A stretch of DNA of 64,000 bases from Bordetella genomosp. 12 (GTDB lineage: Bacteria; Pseudomonadota; Gammaproteobacteria; Burkholderiales; Burkholderiaceae_B). The stretch spans positions 434,001 to 498,000 of the forward strand of contig NZ_NEVU01000003.1 of the NCBI RefSeq assembly GCF_002261355.1, read 5' to 3'. Below, one piece after another: positions 53,186 to 60,696 of the stretch (position 1 is the stretch's first letter; each line of letters begins with the position of its first letter). The position numbers and the translations under genes were made by a program. The notes under the pieces were generated by a model, which searched no databases, was not told the origin of the DNA, and worked only from the letters and a program-made list of their open reading frames with translations.

Positions 53186-53300
53186 TCCGCCGGGCGCCGG
53201 GGGCTGTCGGAACGCGCCCGGTCCGCCGTGATCCGGCCGGCGCGCGCCGGTCGTCCCGATCTTGTTTGGCACCGGTTAGATGCAGGTCAAATCCGCATTG

Positions 53301-53330
53301 TTGCAGCGCAGCATGGGTTTGGGGTGTAAT
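53301..53330 (+). promoter_or_regulatory. candidate sigma-70 promoter of the DUF3141-pta-ackA-fabI operon
   Basis: TTGCAG (53301-53306), an 18-bp spacer and TGTAAT (53325-53330), about 60 bp before the ATG. The -10 matches TATAAT at five of six positions. Overlapping TGC-AGC-GCA resembles the TGC/GCA sites of PHA regulators, but this is weak. Confidence 0.5.
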
Positions 53331-53389
53331 GGAGCTATCCACCCCCTTCCGGGGGAGCCGGCCAAAAGCCGATCAAGCAGGAGACCGCC

Positions 53390-56023
53390 ATGGCAGTTAA
53401 GGGCAACGCCCCCAAGTCCCTCCCCGCTGGCCAGCCCGCGGGCGCCCAGGACGATTCTATTACGTCACTATTTTCGTCCTGGTTCAAACCCACCCTGCCC
53501 GGGCTGTCGGCCGAAACCCTGCAAGCCCTGCCCGGCCCGGCGCTTCTGCAAGCCGCCTACGCTTATGGCGTGGATGCCTGGCAACGCGGCGTGCTCTATA
53601 CCGACGTCATGCGCCAGCGCGGCAATCAGTATCTGGTGCATATGGCCAAGCGCGAACCGAATGTGCTGGCCATGGAGTCCGAGGTCCTGCTCGATGGCCG
53701 CGAGTTCGAGCGCCCGGTCAACTACATGCTGCTGCGCATCGTTCCTCCGGCCGATACGCCGGCAGACCCCGAAAAGCGCCCCTTTCTGGTGGTGGATCCC
53801 CGCGCTGGCCACGGGCCGGGCATAGGGGGATTCAAACCGGAGAGCGAGATCGGTGTGGCGGTGCGTGCCGGCCACCCCTGCTACTTCGCTTCCTTTCTGC
53901 CCCAGCCCACGCCGACCCAGACGGTCGAGGACGTCATGCGCGCCGAAGCGCGCTTTCTGGAAACCATCATCGACCGCCACCCCGACGCCGAAGGCAAGCC
54001 CGTGGTGGTGGGCAATTGCCAGGCCGGCTGGCAGATCATGATGACCGCCGCCATGCGCCCCGAGCTGTTCGGCCCCATCATCGTGGCCGGCGCGCCACTG
54101 TCGTACTGGGCGGGCTGGCGCAACAAGAATCCCATGCGTTATTCGGGCGGGCTGCTCGGCGGCTCCTGGCTCACCGAGATGACCAGCGATATGGGCAACG
54201 GCAAGTTCGACGGCGCCTGGCTGGTGCAGAACTTCGAGAATCTCAACCCCGCCAACACCTTGTGGAGCAAACAGTACAACCTGTACTCCAAGGTCGACAC
54301 GGAAGCGCCGCGCTATCTCGAGTTCGAGAAGTGGTGGGGCGGTCATGTTTTTCTCAATGCCCCGGAGATCCAGTACATCGTCGACAACCTGTTCATCGGC
54401 AACCGGCTCGCCACCGCCGGCCTGGTGACCTCCGACGGCATCCGGATCGATCTGCGCAACATCCGCTCGCCCATCATTGTGTTCTGCTCCAAGGGCGACA
54501 ACATCACGCCCCCGCCACAGGCGCTGGGCTGGATCACCGACCTTTACCAGGACGACAAGGAAGTCATCGCCCACGGCCAGACCATCGTCTATGCCGTGCA
54601 TGAAAGCGTCGGCCATCTGGGCATCTTCGTCTCGGGCAGTGTCGCGCGCAAAGAGCATCTGGAATTCACCAGCAATATCGACATGATCGATGTGCTGCCG
54701 CCCGGCATCTACCAAACCGAAATCGCCGACAAGACGCCGGAAACCGCCAATGCCGATCTGGCGCAAGGCAATTACGTGCTGTCTTTCGCGCGCCGCAATC
54801 TGGACGACGTGCGCCAGATCGTCCAACGGCTGGAAGAAGATGACCGCCGTTTTGCCGCCGTGGCGCGCATCTCGGATATCAATCTGGGCATGTACCGCAG
54901 CTTCCTGCGTCCCTGGGTGCAGGCTGTCGTCACGCCGCAGACGGCGGAGTGGGCGCAACGCCTGCATCCGCTGCGTCTGCCCTATGAATTGATCTCCGAC
55001 CGCAACCCTTCGATCGCTCCCATTGCCCAGGTGGCCGAACAGGTGCGCGAGCACCGCGAGCCGGTGGCCGCCGACAACCCCTTCCTCGTGGCGCAGCAGA
55101 TGGTCTCGCAGGCCATCGTGGCCGGGCTGGAGATTTTCACTGAATTGCGCGATGCGGCCGTCGAGCGCACCTTCATGAATGTCTTTGGCTCGCTGCCGGC
55201 GCAGAACCTGGCCGGACTGGGCGCGCGGCCCGGCGCGCCACGCAAGCATCCGGGCGTATCGCCCGAGCATCTGGACTTCATGCGCAGGCGGCAGGACGAA
55301 CTGCGCGCGCGCATCAGCCAGGGCGGCGCCCGCGAGGCGGCCATCCGCATGGTGCTGGCTGTCTCCGGCGCCGGCGGCGGTCTGGACGAACGCAGCTACG
55401 CCATGATCCGCCGTCTGCGTGCCGACTCCGAAACCAGCATCTCCCTGCAGGACTTCAAGGACGCGGTGCGCGATCAGGCGCTGCTCATGCTCATGGACGG
55501 CCCGGCTGCCGTGCGCGCCATCCCCAAGCTGCTGGAGAACGTATCGGCCGACGGCATCCGCCTGACGCTGGCCACCATGCGCCATATCGTGGAAGCCACG
55601 CAGCCGCTCACGCCGCGCGCCCAAGAGGCGCTGCAGGAAATGGAACGCCTGTTCGAGACGGCTGAGCGCCGCGCACGGCGCCGCGAAGGCGGGCAGCCTC
55701 AGGATCTGTCGCAACTGCCCTTGATCGACGCCTTCAGCGCCACCGACGTGGGCCGCGAGGCCTTGCAGGTCGCCGGCCTGGATCTGCCCGCCACGCGCAG
55801 CGCCAGCCGTCTGGCGGACAAGCCTGCTGCCAAGCCAGGCCGCAAAACGGCCGCCAGGCCCGCGAGCAAGCGCGCCGCCAAGACGCCGGCCAAGCCCGCC
55901 GCGGCCAAGAAGGCAACACCCAAAAAGGTGGCGCCAGCGGCGGCGAAAACCGCCGCGAAACCGGCGCGCAAGTCCGCGGATGTCATTCCGCTCACACCGC
56001 CGCGTGCCCGCAAACGCGGCTAA
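53390..56023 (+). CDS. DUF3141 protein, PHA-synthase-like alpha/beta hydrolase with a lysine-rich tail
   Basis: An 877-residue protein. The alpha/beta-hydrolase domain (about residues 130-420) has a lipase-like box GNCQAGW with a cysteine nucleophile (Cys210), Asp370 in FCSKGDNITPP and His409 in VHESVGHLGIF, the same triad as PhaC polymerases. The next 370 residues are helical (LRPWVQAVVTPQTAEWAQR, EHLDFMRRRQDELRARI). From about residue 803 to the end it is rich in Lys, Ala, Pro, like histone H1. It may bind polymer granules, DNA or acidic lipids. It leads an operon with Pta, AckA and FabI proteins, suggesting acyl-CoA or hydroxyacyl metabolism. The reaction is unknown. Confidence 0.88.
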   Translation: MAVKGNAPKSLPAGQPAGAQDDSITSLFSSWFKPTLPGLSAETLQALPGPALLQAAYAYGVDAWQRGVLYTDVMRQRGNQYLVHMAKREPNVLAMESEVLLDGREFERPVNYMLLRIVPPADTPADPEKRPFLVVDPRAGHGPGIGGFKPESEIGVAVRAGHPCYFASFLPQPTPTQTVEDVMRAEARFLETIIDRHPDAEGKPVVVGNCQAGWQIMMTAAMRPELFGPIIVAGAPLSYWAGWRNKNPMRYSGGLLGGSWLTEMTSDMGNGKFDGAWLVQNFENLNPANTLWSKQYNLYSKVDTEAPRYLEFEKWWGGHVFLNAPEIQYIVDNLFIGNRLATAGLVTSDGIRIDLRNIRSPIIVFCSKGDNITPPPQALGWITDLYQDDKEVIAHGQTIVYAVHESVGHLGIFVSGSVARKEHLEFTSNIDMIDVLPPGIYQTEIADKTPETANADLAQGNYVLSFARRNLDDVRQIVQRLEEDDRRFAAVARISDINLGMYRSFLRPWVQAVVTPQTAEWAQRLHPLRLPYELISDRNPSIAPIAQVAEQVREHREPVAADNPFLVAQQMVSQAIVAGLEIFTELRDAAVERTFMNVFGSLPAQNLAGLGARPGAPRKHPGVSPEHLDFMRRRQDELRARISQGGAREAAIRMVLAVSGAGGGLDERSYAMIRRLRADSETSISLQDFKDAVRDQALLMLMDGPAAVRAIPKLLENVSADGIRLTLATMRHIVEATQPLTPRAQEALQEMERLFETAERRARRREGGQPQDLSQLPLIDAFSATDVGREALQVAGLDLPATRSASRLADKPAAKPGRKTAARPASKRAAKTPAKPAAAKKATPKKVAPAAAKTAAKPARKSADVIPLTPPRARKRG

Positions 56024-56040
56024 GCCCTGGAGGCCGACCC

Positions 56041-56979
56041 ATGACAGAGACGCGTGCTCCCCACTATGAACGCCTGATCGAACGGGCGCGTGAGTTGCCG
56101 GCGGCAACCTGCGCCATTGCTCATCCCTGCGACGAGACCTCCTTGAGCTCGGCGCTCGAAGCGGCTCGCCTGGGTCTGCTGGTGCCCATTCTGGTGGGTC
56201 CGCAGCGCAAGATCCGCGAGGTGGCCGAGCAATGCGGGCTGGACCTGACGTCGGTCGAGATCGTCGACACCCCGCATAGCCATGCCTCGGCCGCCGCGGC
56301 GGTCGAACGCGTACGCAGCGGCCATGCGTCGCTGCTCATGAAAGGCAGCCTGCATACCGATGAATTGATGCACGATGTCGTGGCGCGCGATACCGGCCTG
56401 CGGACCGGGCGGCGCATCAGCCATGTTTTCATCATGGACGTGCCCAGTTACGTCGAACCGCTGTTCATCACCGACGCGGCCATCAACATCTTTCCCGATC
56501 TGGACACCAAGGCCGACATCATCCGCAACGTGATCGAGCTGCATCTGGGCCTGGGGCTGGGCGCGCCGCGCGTGGCCATCCTGTCGGCCGTCGAACAGGT
56601 CACGCGCGCCATTCCCAGCACCCTCGAGGCCGCCGCGCTGTGCAAAATGGCCGACCGCGGCCAGATCATGGGCGGCGTGCTCGATGGTCCGCTGGCGCTG
56701 GACAACGCCATCAGCCCCGAAGCCGCCCGGGTCAAAGGCATCGTCTCGCCGGTGGCCGGCCGCGCCCAGGTGCTGGTGGTGCCCGATCTCGAGGCGGGCA
56801 ATATGCTGGCCAAGAACCTGACGTTTCTGGCCGGCGCCGATGCCGCCGGCATCGTGCTGGGCGCACGCGTGCCCATCATTCTGACCAGCCGCGCCGACAG
56901 CGCGCGCTCACGCCTGGCCTCGTGCGCGGTCGCCATGATCTACGCCAACCACCTGGCCCGCACCGCCCCCATCCAATGA
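56041..56979 (+). CDS. phosphate acyltransferase (Pta/Ptb family), no MaoC domain
   Basis: A 312-residue enzyme exchanging CoA and phosphate on an acyl group. ASLLMKGSLHTDELMHDVVARDTGLRTGRRISHVFIMDVPSYVEPLFITDAAINIFPDLDTKADII is the PTA/PTB core. The long bifunctional forms begin with a MaoC hydratase domain, which is absent. Acetyl, butyryl or other short acyl-CoA could be used; the partner kinase is next. It is 17 bp after the DUF3141 gene. Confidence 0.9.
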   Translation: MTETRAPHYERLIERARELPAATCAIAHPCDETSLSSALEAARLGLLVPILVGPQRKIREVAEQCGLDLTSVEIVDTPHSHASAAAAVERVRSGHASLLMKGSLHTDELMHDVVARDTGLRTGRRISHVFIMDVPSYVEPLFITDAAINIFPDLDTKADIIRNVIELHLGLGLGAPRVAILSAVEQVTRAIPSTLEAAALCKMADRGQIMGGVLDGPLALDNAISPEAARVKGIVSPVAGRAQVLVVPDLEAGNMLAKNLTFLAGADAAGIVLGARVPIILTSRADSARSRLASCAVAMIYANHLARTAPIQ

Positions 56980-56987
56980 GGCCGCCG

Positions 56988-58178
56988 ATGAACAGCCAGG
57001 ACACACTACTCGTCATCAACGCGGGCAGCTCCAGCATCAAGTTCTATCTTTACGGCATCAGCGCCGAGCGCGAGCTCAGCCCGATTCTTGGCGGCCAGCT
57101 CGAAGGCATCGGCACGCAGCACTCGCGCTTGCGGGTGCGCGACGCTCAGGGCCAGACCATGACCGAACGCCAGATCGCGCCGCGCCACGCCGCGGATGTG
57201 CGGGATGCCCAGGAAGTCGTGGGCACCTGGCTCAGCGGCCACTTGAGCGGCTCGCCGCTGGCCGTGGGCCACCGCGTCGTGCATGGCGGCCCGGATCTGC
57301 ATGCGCCGGTCCTGGTCGATGACGCCATCATCGAAAAGTTGCAGAGCTACACCTCGCTGGCGCCCTTGCATCAGCCCAATAATCTGGCGCCCATGCAGGT
57401 CATCCGCGAGCGGCTGCCGCACTTGCCCCAAGTGGCCTGCTTCGATACCGCCTTTCACCGCACGCACTCGGCGGTGGCGGATCGCTATGCCGTGCCCGAA
57501 GCGATGTATCAGGAAGGCGTGCGGCGCTACGGGTTTCATGGCTTGTCTTATGAGTATGTGGCGCAACGCGTCAAGCGCGCCCTGCCCGACCTGCAAGGCG
57601 GCAAAGTCGTCGCCGCCCATATCGGGTCGGGCGTGTCGGCCTGCGCCATGCTCGATGGCAAGAGCGTGGACAGCACCATGGGCTTTACCGCGCTCGAAGG
57701 CCTGCCCATGGGCACCCGGCCCGGGCGCCTGGACCCTGGCATCGTGCTGTGGCTGATGGAGCGCGGCATGAGCCATGACGAGATCCAGCATTTTCTCTAC
57801 CACGACTGCGGGCTCAAAGGCCTGTCGGGCATCGGCAACGATATGCGCGAACTCGAAGCCAGCGACGCGCCTGCCGCGCGGCTGGCGCTCGATTACTTTG
57901 CCTGGCGCGTCGCCGAGGGCATCGTCGGCCTGGGCTGCGCCATGAACGGCATCGACGCCATCGTGTTCACCGCCGGTATCGGCGAGAACTCCGCTGGCAT
58001 GCGCGCGCGCATCGCACGTCACTGGGAGTGGCTGGGCATCCGCATCGATGATGCACGCAATGCCGCGCACGGCCCGCGCATCAGCACCGAAGACAGCAAG
58101 ATCGGCGTGTATGTGGTGCGCACCAATGAAGAGCTCATCATCGCCCAGCACACCCTCGATCTGGTGTCGGCCCGATGA
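56988..58178 (+). CDS. ackA: acetate/propionate family kinase
   Basis: A 396-residue kinase that makes ATP from acyl phosphate. LLVINAGSSSIKFYLYGIS is the phosphate-binding start; GHRVVHGG, HNPANN-like HQPNNLAPMQ, FDTAFHRTHS, RRYGFHGLSYEYV, HIGSGVSACAMLDGKSVDSTMGFTALEGLPMGTRPGRLDPGI and FTAGIGENSAGMR are AckA motifs. The ATG at 56988 follows TGAGG by 6 bp; an upstream in-frame ATG (56976) overlaps the pta stop. With Pta it can couple acyl-CoA to ATP. Confidence 0.94.
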   Translation: MNSQDTLLVINAGSSSIKFYLYGISAERELSPILGGQLEGIGTQHSRLRVRDAQGQTMTERQIAPRHAADVRDAQEVVGTWLSGHLSGSPLAVGHRVVHGGPDLHAPVLVDDAIIEKLQSYTSLAPLHQPNNLAPMQVIRERLPHLPQVACFDTAFHRTHSAVADRYAVPEAMYQEGVRRYGFHGLSYEYVAQRVKRALPDLQGGKVVAAHIGSGVSACAMLDGKSVDSTMGFTALEGLPMGTRPGRLDPGIVLWLMERGMSHDEIQHFLYHDCGLKGLSGIGNDMRELEASDAPAARLALDYFAWRVAEGIVGLGCAMNGIDAIVFTAGIGENSAGMRARIARHWEWLGIRIDDARNAAHGPRISTEDSKIGVYVVRTNEELIIAQHTLDLVSAR

Positions 58179-58939
58179 ACGCCCTGGCGGGCAAGCGCGG
58201 TCTGATCACCGGCATCGCCAACGACAACTCCATTGCCTGGGGCTGCGCCAAAGCCTTCCGCGCCATGGGCGCGGAGCTGGCTGTCACCTATCTAAACGAC
58301 AAGGCGCGCCACTACGTCGAACCCCTGGCGCGGCAAGTCGAGGCGCCCCTGCTCATGCCGCTGGACCTTAATCAACCCGGCCAGCTGGAAGACGTTTTCG
58401 AACGCCTCCGCGCCGAATGGGGCCGGCTGGACTTCGTGCTGCATGCCATCGCCTACGCCCCGCGCGATGACCTCCAGGGCCGCGTGACAGACTGCTCGCG
58501 CGCGGGTTTTCTGGCGGCCATGGATATTTCCTGCTGGTCCTTCATCCGCATGGCCCATCTGGCCGAGCCGCTCATGACCGATGGCGGCACGCTCTTTTGC
58601 ATGAGCTATTACGGCGCCGAGATGGTGGTGGAGCACTACAACATGATGGGGCCGGTCAAGGCGGCGCTCGAGTCGGCCACGCGCTATCTGGCCGCCGAAC
58701 TCGGCCCGCAGGGCATACGCGTGCACGCCATCTCGCCCGGGCCTTTGAAAACCCGCGCGGCCTCCGGCATCAGCGACTTTGACGCCTTGCTCTACAAAGC
58801 CCAGGAGAAAGCGCCGATCCGCAGCCTGGTGGACATCGATGATGTCGGCGAAGCCACCGCCTGGCTGGCGACCGACGCGGCGCGGCGCATGACCGGCCAG
58901 ACGCTGTACATCGACGGCGGCTACCACATCGTCGATTGA
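58175..58939 (+). CDS. fabI: enoyl-[acyl-carrier-protein] reductase FabI-like
   Basis: A 254-residue short-chain dehydrogenase. GKRGLITGIANDNSIAWGCAKAFRAMGAELAVTYLNDKARHYVEPLA is the FabI NADH-binding start. The catalytic Tyr-X6-Lys is in EHYNMMGPVKAALESATRYLAAELGPQGIRVHAISPGPLKTRAASGI. It overlaps ackA by 4 bp (ATGA), the last gene of the operon. In this context it may reduce enoyl-CoA rather than serve bulk fatty-acid synthesis; another fabI may exist elsewhere. Confidence 0.92.
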   Translation: MNALAGKRGLITGIANDNSIAWGCAKAFRAMGAELAVTYLNDKARHYVEPLARQVEAPLLMPLDLNQPGQLEDVFERLRAEWGRLDFVLHAIAYAPRDDLQGRVTDCSRAGFLAAMDISCWSFIRMAHLAEPLMTDGGTLFCMSYYGAEMVVEHYNMMGPVKAALESATRYLAAELGPQGIRVHAISPGPLKTRAASGISDFDALLYKAQEKAPIRSLVDIDDVGEATAWLATDAARRMTGQTLYIDGGYHIVD

Positions 58940-58946
58940 AGGCGGC

Positions 58947-60626
58947 TCAGGCCTTGCGGCCGCGCTGCTCGATGGCGGCCACGGCCTGCTCGACGCTGAT
59001 GAACACCTGCTCCGGCCCCACGGCCTCGATCAATCCGCTGCGCTCCATCGCGGTGCGGAACAGGCCATGGCCGCCCGCGATCATCATGACCGTCTCGCGC
59101 GCATCCAGCTCGCGCTTGAGCCTAAAAAGGGCCTCGACGGCGTCGGCATCGGCATGGGTCATGGCTTCGGCGTCCAGCACGAACCAGCGGGCGTTGCCGG
59201 CCAGCGAGACCACGTCGCGGGCACGGCGGCGAAAGGCGTCGGCATTGAAAAACCAGATGGACGACTCGAACAGCCAGATCACCGTGTCCGGCACCGGCTC
59301 GGCCGTGGGATTCAGATGCAGTTTGCACAACGCCCGGTCGCCCGGCAGGCGCCCGAGCAACGCATCGCGGGGATTGGCCGTGACATACATCACGTACATC
59401 AGCGTGGCCGTGACGGCCGTCATGACGCCGCCCAGCACACCGAAGAACACCACGCCCACCGCGGCCAGCATGGCAAAACCCAGCTCCGCCCGCGAAATCC
59501 GGGCCAGTTGGACAAAAGCCTCCCACTGGAACAGATGCAGGGCCGCGAAGAACAGGATCGCCGCCAGCGTGGCCTGCGGCAGCCAATAGAGCAGCCCGGT
59601 CGCCAGGCTCAGGACCGCTCCCAAGGCCAGGGCCGCCACGACACTGGCCAGCGGCGAGCTGGCGCCGGCGGCCAGGCTGACGGCGGTGCGCGAATCCGCG
59701 CCGGTCACGACGAAACCCTGAAACAGCCCGGAGGCCAGATTCGCGCCGCCCAGCCCGACCAATTCGCGGTTGGGCTCGACGTCCTCGCCGCTGACGGTGG
59801 CGAAACTGCGCGCCGTGACGATGCCGCTGGAAAAGCTGACGAGCAGCACACCCGCGGCGCCCAGCAGAAAACCCGGCACATTGCGAAAGTCATCCGGCAG
59901 CTTGAACACCGGCAGACCCGCCGGCACATCGCCCACCACCGCGATGCCCAGCTTAGGGAAATTCAAGAGCCAGGACAGCAGGCAGGTGACGGCGACCAGC
60001 ATGATGGCGCCCGGCCAGCGTGGCCGCCAGGCCCGTTGCGCGGCCAGCGCGGCGCAGCAAAGCACGCCCAGCACCAGCGTGGCGGGATGCGCCTGGGTGA
60101 GCAAGCGGGTGACGGCCTCGAAAGGCCGCAGCAGATCCGCCGCGCGCGCGCCCGCGCCAGTCAGCGCGCCCAGTTGCGACCAAGCCAGCGTGAGCGCCAC
60201 GCCGGCCATATACCCCACCAGCACCGGCCGCGACAGCAGGTTGGCCAGCACACCCAGGCGAAACAGCCGCGCCAGCAGACAACCCACCCCCACCACGACG
60301 GCCATGCCGGCTGCCGCGGCAAGCCGGGCTTGCGGCTCGACGATGGACAGCCCCGTCAGGGTGGCTGCGATCAGGGTGCAGGTGGCCGTATCCGGCCCGA
60401 CGATGAGCGTACGCGAAGCGCCGAACAGGGCATAACCCAGCATGCCGGCCATCGCGGCCCACAAGCCGCTGGCGGCGGGCAAGCCCATCATGCTGGCGTA
60501 GGCCAGGCCCACGGGCAGCGCCACGGCCGCGACGCTCAGACCGGCCAGGGCATCCTGGCGCGCGGACGCGGCCGTGATGCCGCGCCATTTGGCCAAATTC
60601 GGTCCGAGCAGGGATTTGAGATTCAT
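58947..60626 (-). CDS. SulP-family inorganic anion transporter with STAS domain
   Basis: A 559-residue inner-membrane anion transporter. DALAGLSVAAVALPVGLAYASMMGLPAASGLWAAMAGMLGYALFGASR is the SulP start, and about twelve helices follow. A C-terminal STAS domain (about residues 440-550: VIWLFESSIWFFNADAF, WFVLDAEAMTHADADAVEALFRL) may regulate it. The start at 60626 avoids a long hairpin that covers the farther start at 60662. Sulfate or bicarbonate are plausible substrates. Converges with fabI, 7 bp apart. Confidence 0.9.
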   Translation of the reverse strand: MNLKSLLGPNLAKWRGITAASARQDALAGLSVAAVALPVGLAYASMMGLPAASGLWAAMAGMLGYALFGASRTLIVGPDTATCTLIAATLTGLSIVEPQARLAAAAGMAVVVGVGCLLARLFRLGVLANLLSRPVLVGYMAGVALTLAWSQLGALTGAGARAADLLRPFEAVTRLLTQAHPATLVLGVLCCAALAAQRAWRPRWPGAIMLVAVTCLLSWLLNFPKLGIAVVGDVPAGLPVFKLPDDFRNVPGFLLGAAGVLLVSFSSGIVTARSFATVSGEDVEPNRELVGLGGANLASGLFQGFVVTGADSRTAVSLAAGASSPLASVVAALALGAVLSLATGLLYWLPQATLAAILFFAALHLFQWEAFVQLARISRAELGFAMLAAVGVVFFGVLGGVMTAVTATLMYVMYVTANPRDALLGRLPGDRALCKLHLNPTAEPVPDTVIWLFESSIWFFNADAFRRRARDVVSLAGNARWFVLDAEAMTHADADAVEALFRLKRELDARETVMMIAGGHGLFRTAMERSGLIEAVGPEQVFISVEQAVAAIEQRGRKA

Positions 60627-60660
60627 CGGTGGCGGCTGAGAGCGGAACAAACCCAATGAC

Positions 60661-60696
60661 ATCGGGGCCTGGCCGCACAGGCGGCCAGGCCCCGAT
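60661..60696 (-). terminator. perfect 16-bp inverted repeat between pgk and the SulP gene
   Basis: ATCGGGGCCTGGCCGC, ACAG, then its exact reverse complement. No T run follows on the minus strand. It lies 30 bp after the pgk stop and covers the alternative SulP start at 60662. A pgk terminator, processing stem or translation-blocking hairpin are possible. Confidence 0.6.

Follow-up and report, generated by a model that had tools for sequence, protein, structure and literature searches.

Why does a gene for an uncharacterised DUF3141 protein stand at the head of an operon with pta, ackA and fabI, and what would the four enzymes do together? The question arises in a 64,000-nucleotide stretch of Bordetella genomosp. 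12 DNA (the window), in which four genes follow one another on the plus strand: the DUF3141 gene (53390-56023; 877 aa, with a PhaC-type alpha/beta hydrolase domain, a helical domain and a Lys/Ala/Pro-rich tail), pta (56041-56979; a 312-aa phosphotransacylase of subfamily PRK11890), ackA (56988-58178; a 396-aa acetate/propionate-family kinase) and fabI (58175-58939; a 254-aa PRK07533 enoyl reductase of a module-specific clade). For ackA we used the start at 56988; the mechanical ORF list begins the gene further upstream. Pfam matches came in the same order: DUF3141 (PF11339; 967 bits, over the Pfam cut-off, model positions 1-581 of 582), PTA_PTB, Acetate_kinase and enoyl reductase. The reading frames, order, strand and junctions described in a first-pass annotation all agreed with the coordinates, with a 17-bp gap between DUF3141 and pta, an 8-bp gap between pta and ackA and a 4-bp overlap of ackA with fabI. 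Together with a single candidate sigma-70-like promoter (53301-53330, plus strand; TTGCAG at 53301-53306, an 18-bp spacer and TGTAAT at 53325-53330), these junctions support the co-expressed unit proposed there, and the four genes are probably co-transcribed. The promoter layout is also visible upstream in Bordetella and Achromobacter relatives. Downstream, 7 bp separate the end of fabI (58939) from a convergent sulfate-permease-family gene (58947-60662, minus strand), which leaves hardly any space for a terminator. As an answer, to which we give about an even chance, we propose that the four genes form a module for PHB-linked disposal of acyl-CoA, controlled by PhaR, a repressor that senses PHB, and in some lineages also by an oxygen-responsive activator of the FNR/FixK type.

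The operon had been called undescribed, which is wrong. Its one-strand order, DUF3141-pta-ackA-fabI, is that of the ORF-pta-ackA-fabI operon type, known from Sinorhizobium since 1999 and common to S. medicae, Bradyrhizobium, Achromobacter and Paraburkholderia loci; the S. meliloti unit, with the same four-gene order, is reportedly controlled by PhoB. On S. medicae pSymA, DUF3141, phosphate acetyltransferase, acetate/propionate kinase and FabI are annotated in the window's order, and the S. meliloti Rm41 DUF3141 protein shares 56% identity across 79% of the query, in a region without gene annotation in the record. The available text of PMC8231600 cites Summers et al. (1999) for S. meliloti ORF-pta-ack-fabI as co-transcribed and PhoB-controlled. 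It also describes phaC-pta-ack-fabI clusters, with a phaJ-pta fusion, in Burkholderia sensu lato (group D, phaC-(phaJ-)pta-ackA-fabI), and the available part of PMC8686332 describes phaC1-fabI-bi-pta with ackA nearby in Cobetia/Halomonas. Both clusters hold the window's partner enzymes beside a PhaC-type protein, PhaC in the papers' naming, where the window has DUF3141. In Bradyrhizobium, the available part of PMC10888616 lists blr3456-blr3459 as one PhaR-repressed unit (values 7.2 and 7.2) and reports that pta (blr3457) and ackA (blr3458) were strongly induced in a phaR mutant. This B. diazoefficiens unit resembles the window in running from a hypothetical gene through pta and ackA to a further gene, and blr3456 and blr3459 would correspond to DUF3141 and FabI.

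A comparison of gene order, which the first-pass annotation had set as a test, found that the linkage recurs without being universal. DUF3141 matches over the cut-off were present in 59 of 398 genomes drawn evenly from the phylum, many of them short, weak PhaC-like matches, and linkage was counted in the regions around 27 long matches from 26 other genomes (4 of the 27 cut by contig ends). All of pta, ackA and fabI lay within 9 kb of DUF3141 in 17 of these 27 loci, against 0/27 for three genes that adjoin the operon in the window (pgk, sulP and a dnaJ-like gene), and 12 of 18 genera held at least one full set; one locus had fabI alone. Matches to housekeeping FabI, malic enzyme and PhaR likewise numbered 0/27 (fabI identity threshold 44% in the linkage tallies, 48% for the housekeeping control). 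Because the order varied, with fabI before or after and pta-ackA sometimes divergent, it is the gene set and not the layout that is kept. MaoC-Pta fusions occurred at 4 and CoA-transferase genes at 7 of the 27 loci. Named loci were taken as the best 80 of 585, a choice biased towards the window; all three partners were found in 28 of these 80 and none in 39, with contig ends cutting 17. Halomonas was frequent among the 39, and some Bordetella were also there. The loci without any partner (9/27 in the phylum sample, 39/80 among the best 80 of 585) count against the disposal reading. All seven named Bradyrhizobium loci had the order DUF3141-pta-ackA-fabI, and a Desulfobacteraceae MAG (L147) held one full set. 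A further set (A3) comprised 41 of the 80 named loci plus the window at mutual identity below 82%. The Halomonas neighbours (topA and others, identified by eye) resembled plain local synteny. In a family sample outside the linkage tallies, DUF3141 exceeded the cut-off in 89 of 200 genomes. Thirteen regions (L183-L195) also stood outside the tallies: five weak phylum-sample matches and eight picked from the family sample, of which L188, L189 and L194 were without partners and the remaining five had one or more. In the sister clusters L183, L185, L186 and L271, PhaC-like proteins replace DUF3141 (protein families determined for L183 and L271). Several genera have a fused ABC-ATPase/ABC-2 permease gene beside DUF3141 or beside PhaC-like clusters (L098 5943-8726, identified by Pfam; further copies in L151, L154, L159, L186 and L195, by tblastn).

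Literature labels for DUF3141, in the sources as available, are limited to depolymerase, synthase or hypothetical. The PHA-synthase-like triad proposed for the protein was borne out: Cys210, Asp370 and His409 were conserved without exception in the 17 DUF3141 proteins aligned, and the predicted fold was closest to PHA synthase (PhaC), with Foldseek ranking other hydrolases among the PhaC matches and VIA-align alone putting PhaC apart at the top. The three residues align with a class III-like PhaC profile, in a profile alignment rather than a spatial superposition. The protein differs from class I PhaC in its 14-18% identity, its extra C-terminal helical domain and the lack of a PhaC_N (PF07167) match at E ≤ 0.001, and it scored 21.7 bits against the class I PhaC model TIGR01838, whose cut-off is 622.65. 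Its nearest named relative among the best 80 of 585 is that of Bordetella hinzii (91% identical). Stop codons interrupt some DUF3141 copies elsewhere (G187, G253 (L041, L042), G440, G596 and G515). The 4.5-Mb genome contains one DUF3141 match, one stand-alone Pta, one other FabI-like protein (43% identical), two PhaC_N proteins, one PhaR and one phasin; both class I PhaC genes are located away from the operon, which counts against the disposal reading.

We then considered how the operon might be controlled. A candidate PhaR operator, TTGTTGCAGCGCAGCAT (53298-53314, plus strand), overlaps the -35 element and differs at one position from the PhaR consensus of R. eutropha, YTKNTGCRNYGCANMAR, as given in the available part of PMC12849132. 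The 64-kb window held one such one-mismatch site, with 1.08 expected, so the weight of the observation rests on the position of the operator and its recurrence rather than on number. Upstream of the phasin gene of the same genome are two such palindromes (0 and 1 mismatch), which by eye flank a -35/-10-like pair. Upstream counts covered 114 of 121 loci, many from congeners; in these the DUF3141 core matched at E ≤ 1e-30 and 500 bp or more of upstream sequence was present. The R. eutropha consensus was present in 16 of 114, compared with a background of 0.0055 per 600 bp. The narrow palindrome TGTTGCRNYGCARCA was present in 53 of 114 (background 0.0044 per 600 bp), a count that is partly circular, as the pattern was derived from these promoters and congeners are included; the 53 extend to Halomonas, Chromohalobacter and an Ectothiorhodospiraceae MAG. 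Genome-wide, TGTTGCRNYGCARCA occurred exactly at two places, one of them the DUF3141 operon, and with one mismatch at 18 forward and 21 reverse sites versus 6 and 5 for a reversed-pattern control; at seven other sites in the genome, inspection by eye recognised no PHB gene alongside. The other exact copy (G000:C2:1284814-1284828, L197) is followed, some 140 bp further on, by an ORF whose product presumably resembles a periplasmic tripartite-transporter receptor. Some Bordetella and Achromobacter loci lack part of the operon: no fabI match was obtained in L077 and L084, and in L085, L086, L088 and L152 DUF3141 alone remains, with the palindrome still upstream.

The palindrome over the -35 of the operon and the pair flanking the phasin promoter appear to be new here, and PhaR may bind the candidate operator. 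Three points count against PhaR control: the EMSA-tested promoters in the available part of PMC10888616 did not include blr3456; the main text of PMC12542648, on the S. meliloti PhaR regulon (2025), is silent on ackA, pta, fabI and acetate kinase; and in Sinorhizobium the upstream regions contained nothing closer to the PhaR consensus than 3-mismatch matches. The palindrome also bears on a different role for DUF3141, that of a mainly granule-associated or regulatory PhaC-like protein with the other three enzymes merely co-regulated. Halomonas and B. ansorpii DUF3141 genes without the three enzymes nearby still have the palindrome, and the window protein's Lys/Ala/Pro-rich tail would suit such a role, but the invariance of the triad and the recurrence of the same three enzymes beside DUF3141 in differing orders argue against it, and we rate it as highly improbable.

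A second class of site may mark control by oxygen. A degenerate FNR/FixK-type box, TAGATGCAGGTCAA (53277-53290, plus strand), with one mismatch to TTGAYNNNNRTCAA by eye, sits where Achromobacter has intact boxes; its degeneracy counts against the oxygen-control part of the disposal reading. TTGAYNNNNRTCAA itself was found upstream in 19 of 114 loci, compared with a background of 0.0154 per 600 bp: 7 of 9 named Achromobacter, 5 of 7 named Bradyrhizobium, 2 Microvirga and 5 others. In a first scan the strict FNR box TTGAT-N4-ATCAA had matched 1 of 81 upstream regions. The Bradyrhizobium relatives differ from the window in having a FixK-type box where the window has a clear palindrome. Boxes of this type before the operon in Achromobacter and Bradyrhizobium are apparently new here, and they are candidate sites for FNR binding.

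The PhoB control reported for S. meliloti contrasts with the PhaR-type site of the window, which showed no sign of a Pho box. That report (Summers et al. 1999, as cited in the available text of PMC8231600) would fit a phosphate- or stress-responsive operon for acetyl-phosphate and acetate overflow, with fabI as a surplus reductase for fatty acids and no specific PHB chemistry. Pho-box-like sites were, however, not enriched (with up to 4 mismatches allowed, 45/114 vs 0.48 per 600 bp, a loose test), and Sinorhizobium upstream regions contained Pho-box-like matches at 4-5 mismatches only. Also consistent with overflow, ackA is the only PF00871 match, and hence the only acetate kinase found, in the genome, and the best model for Pta (PRK11890; 519 bits, over its cut-off of 413) carries the name phosphate acetyltransferase, which likewise counts against disposal of a C4 acyl group. 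Against overflow, Pta appears from its scores to be nearer phosphate butyryltransferase (Ptb) than canonical Pta, a placement that is new here: butyryl models gave 290-319 bits, the branched-chain phosphotransacylase model 128 and canonical Pta 65. It reached no butyryl equivalog cut-off (307 bits vs 410.5 for TIGR02706, phosphate butyryltransferase), a further point against C4 disposal. The first-pass annotation had allowed a short or a branched acyl group; a short-chain acyl or hydroxyacyl group is supported, and a branched one is not favoured, its 128 bits lying above 65 but far below 290-519. The three other PTA_PTB proteins of the genome, considered as housekeeping pta, are malic-enzyme fusions (L002, L003 and L004; 760-775 aa).

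AckA is of the acetate/propionate type, scoring 341 bits compared with 34-61 for butyrate kinase models, and 54 of 56 module AckAs have Val at a pocket position where we take acetate kinases to have this residue. Both observations count against the disposal reading. The kinase type instead favours the reverse direction, in which AckA and Pta would activate acetate, propionate or butyrate to acyl-CoA for PHA, with DUF3141 as an auxiliary synthase. AckA and Pta reactions are reversible, of the 80 named loci (best 80 of 585) 2 have phaB and 3 have phaC-like genes nearby, and PMC8231600 and PMC8686332, in their available parts, lean to assimilation for related clusters. However, assimilation needs no enoyl reductase, and FabI would presumably divert crotonyl-CoA from PHA. 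PhaR control, moreover, would place the operon among phasin genes, and in S. meliloti also among depolymerase genes (PMC12542648, available part), a grouping that suggests use at or after granule formation. On balance we think assimilation unlikely.

The module FabI is set apart from the enzyme of fatty-acid synthesis. It matched PRK07533 with 461 bits (cut-off 337) and retains the Tyr-x6-Lys pair, the motif Y[NGD].MG..KA being shared by 49 of the 52 module FabIs and 28 of the 30 housekeeping copies. The module set comprised locus matches of at least 44% identity and more than 200 residues, from which L139 (41%, short) was removed by hand. These FabIs form their own clade, apart from housekeeping FabI. 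The window protein has Asp203 where housekeeping FabI has Arg or Lys and so lacks the basic docking residue expected of a fatty-acid-synthesis FabI; Asp or Glu replaces the corresponding Arg, which we take to be the ACP-docking Arg204 of E. coli FabI (the FabI-ACP structure presumably being PDB 2fhs), in 50 of 52 module FabIs. The literature searched on FabI ACP-patch residues offered nothing useful on this point. The separate clade with an acidic residue at this position appears to be new here. Because of the changed docking patch, the module FabI may act on CoA rather than ACP substrates; the literature found, in searches with other aims, proposes no such specificity. The first-pass annotation had raised the prospect that the partner enzymes are ordinary housekeeping copies. 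This does not hold for fabI, given its clade, and ackA, as the sole acetate kinase of the genome, may also serve general acetate metabolism. The separate clade and the reversed docking patch also argue against fabI as a spare reductase in an overflow operon, which we regard as decidedly improbable.

Returning to PHB-linked disposal under PhaR, the four enzymes would be made together when PHB granules form and titrate PhaR, or when oxygen drops. DUF3141 would serve as an acyltransferase of PhaC type, with a Cys-Asp-His triad and with PHB or (R)-3-hydroxyacyl-CoA as its substrate; its likeliest task would be to transfer hydroxybutyryl units from the polymer to CoA. Crotonyl-CoA would come from a MaoC/PhaJ hydratase, an enzyme that other lineages carry fused to Pta, and FabI would reduce the crotonyl-CoA with NAD(P)H to butyryl-CoA; the Ptb-like Pta would form the acyl phosphate, and AckA would convert this to the free acid and ATP. 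The net effect would be to remove reductant and gain ATP, both from storage carbon, with acetate as a possible second product beside butyrate. The window operon contains no MaoC/PhaJ gene, which counts against this route. The short-chain acyl or hydroxyacyl module with energy recovery that had been put forward is supported, and its PHB link is made firmer by the PhaR-type operator, the PhaC-like sister proteins, the MaoC-Pta fusions, the CoA-transferase genes and the PhaC-like fold.

A bolder and more doubtful extension, which we hold only tentatively, is PHB fermentation, in which at low oxygen DUF3141 would thiolyse granules to 3-hydroxybutyryl-CoA, to be converted to butyrate with a CoA-specific crotonyl-CoA reductase (FabI), one ATP per monomer and net re-oxidation of NADH. 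If true, this would be a widespread form of anaerobic PHB use regulated by PhaR and FNR/FixK, and would include an enoyl reductase that has moved out of fatty-acid synthesis. Such a dedicated fermentation of a storage polymer would bear on anoxic survival and on PHB yield in biotechnology. The operator, the partner enzymes and the FabI signature turn the uncharacterised DUF3141 into a function that can be assayed.
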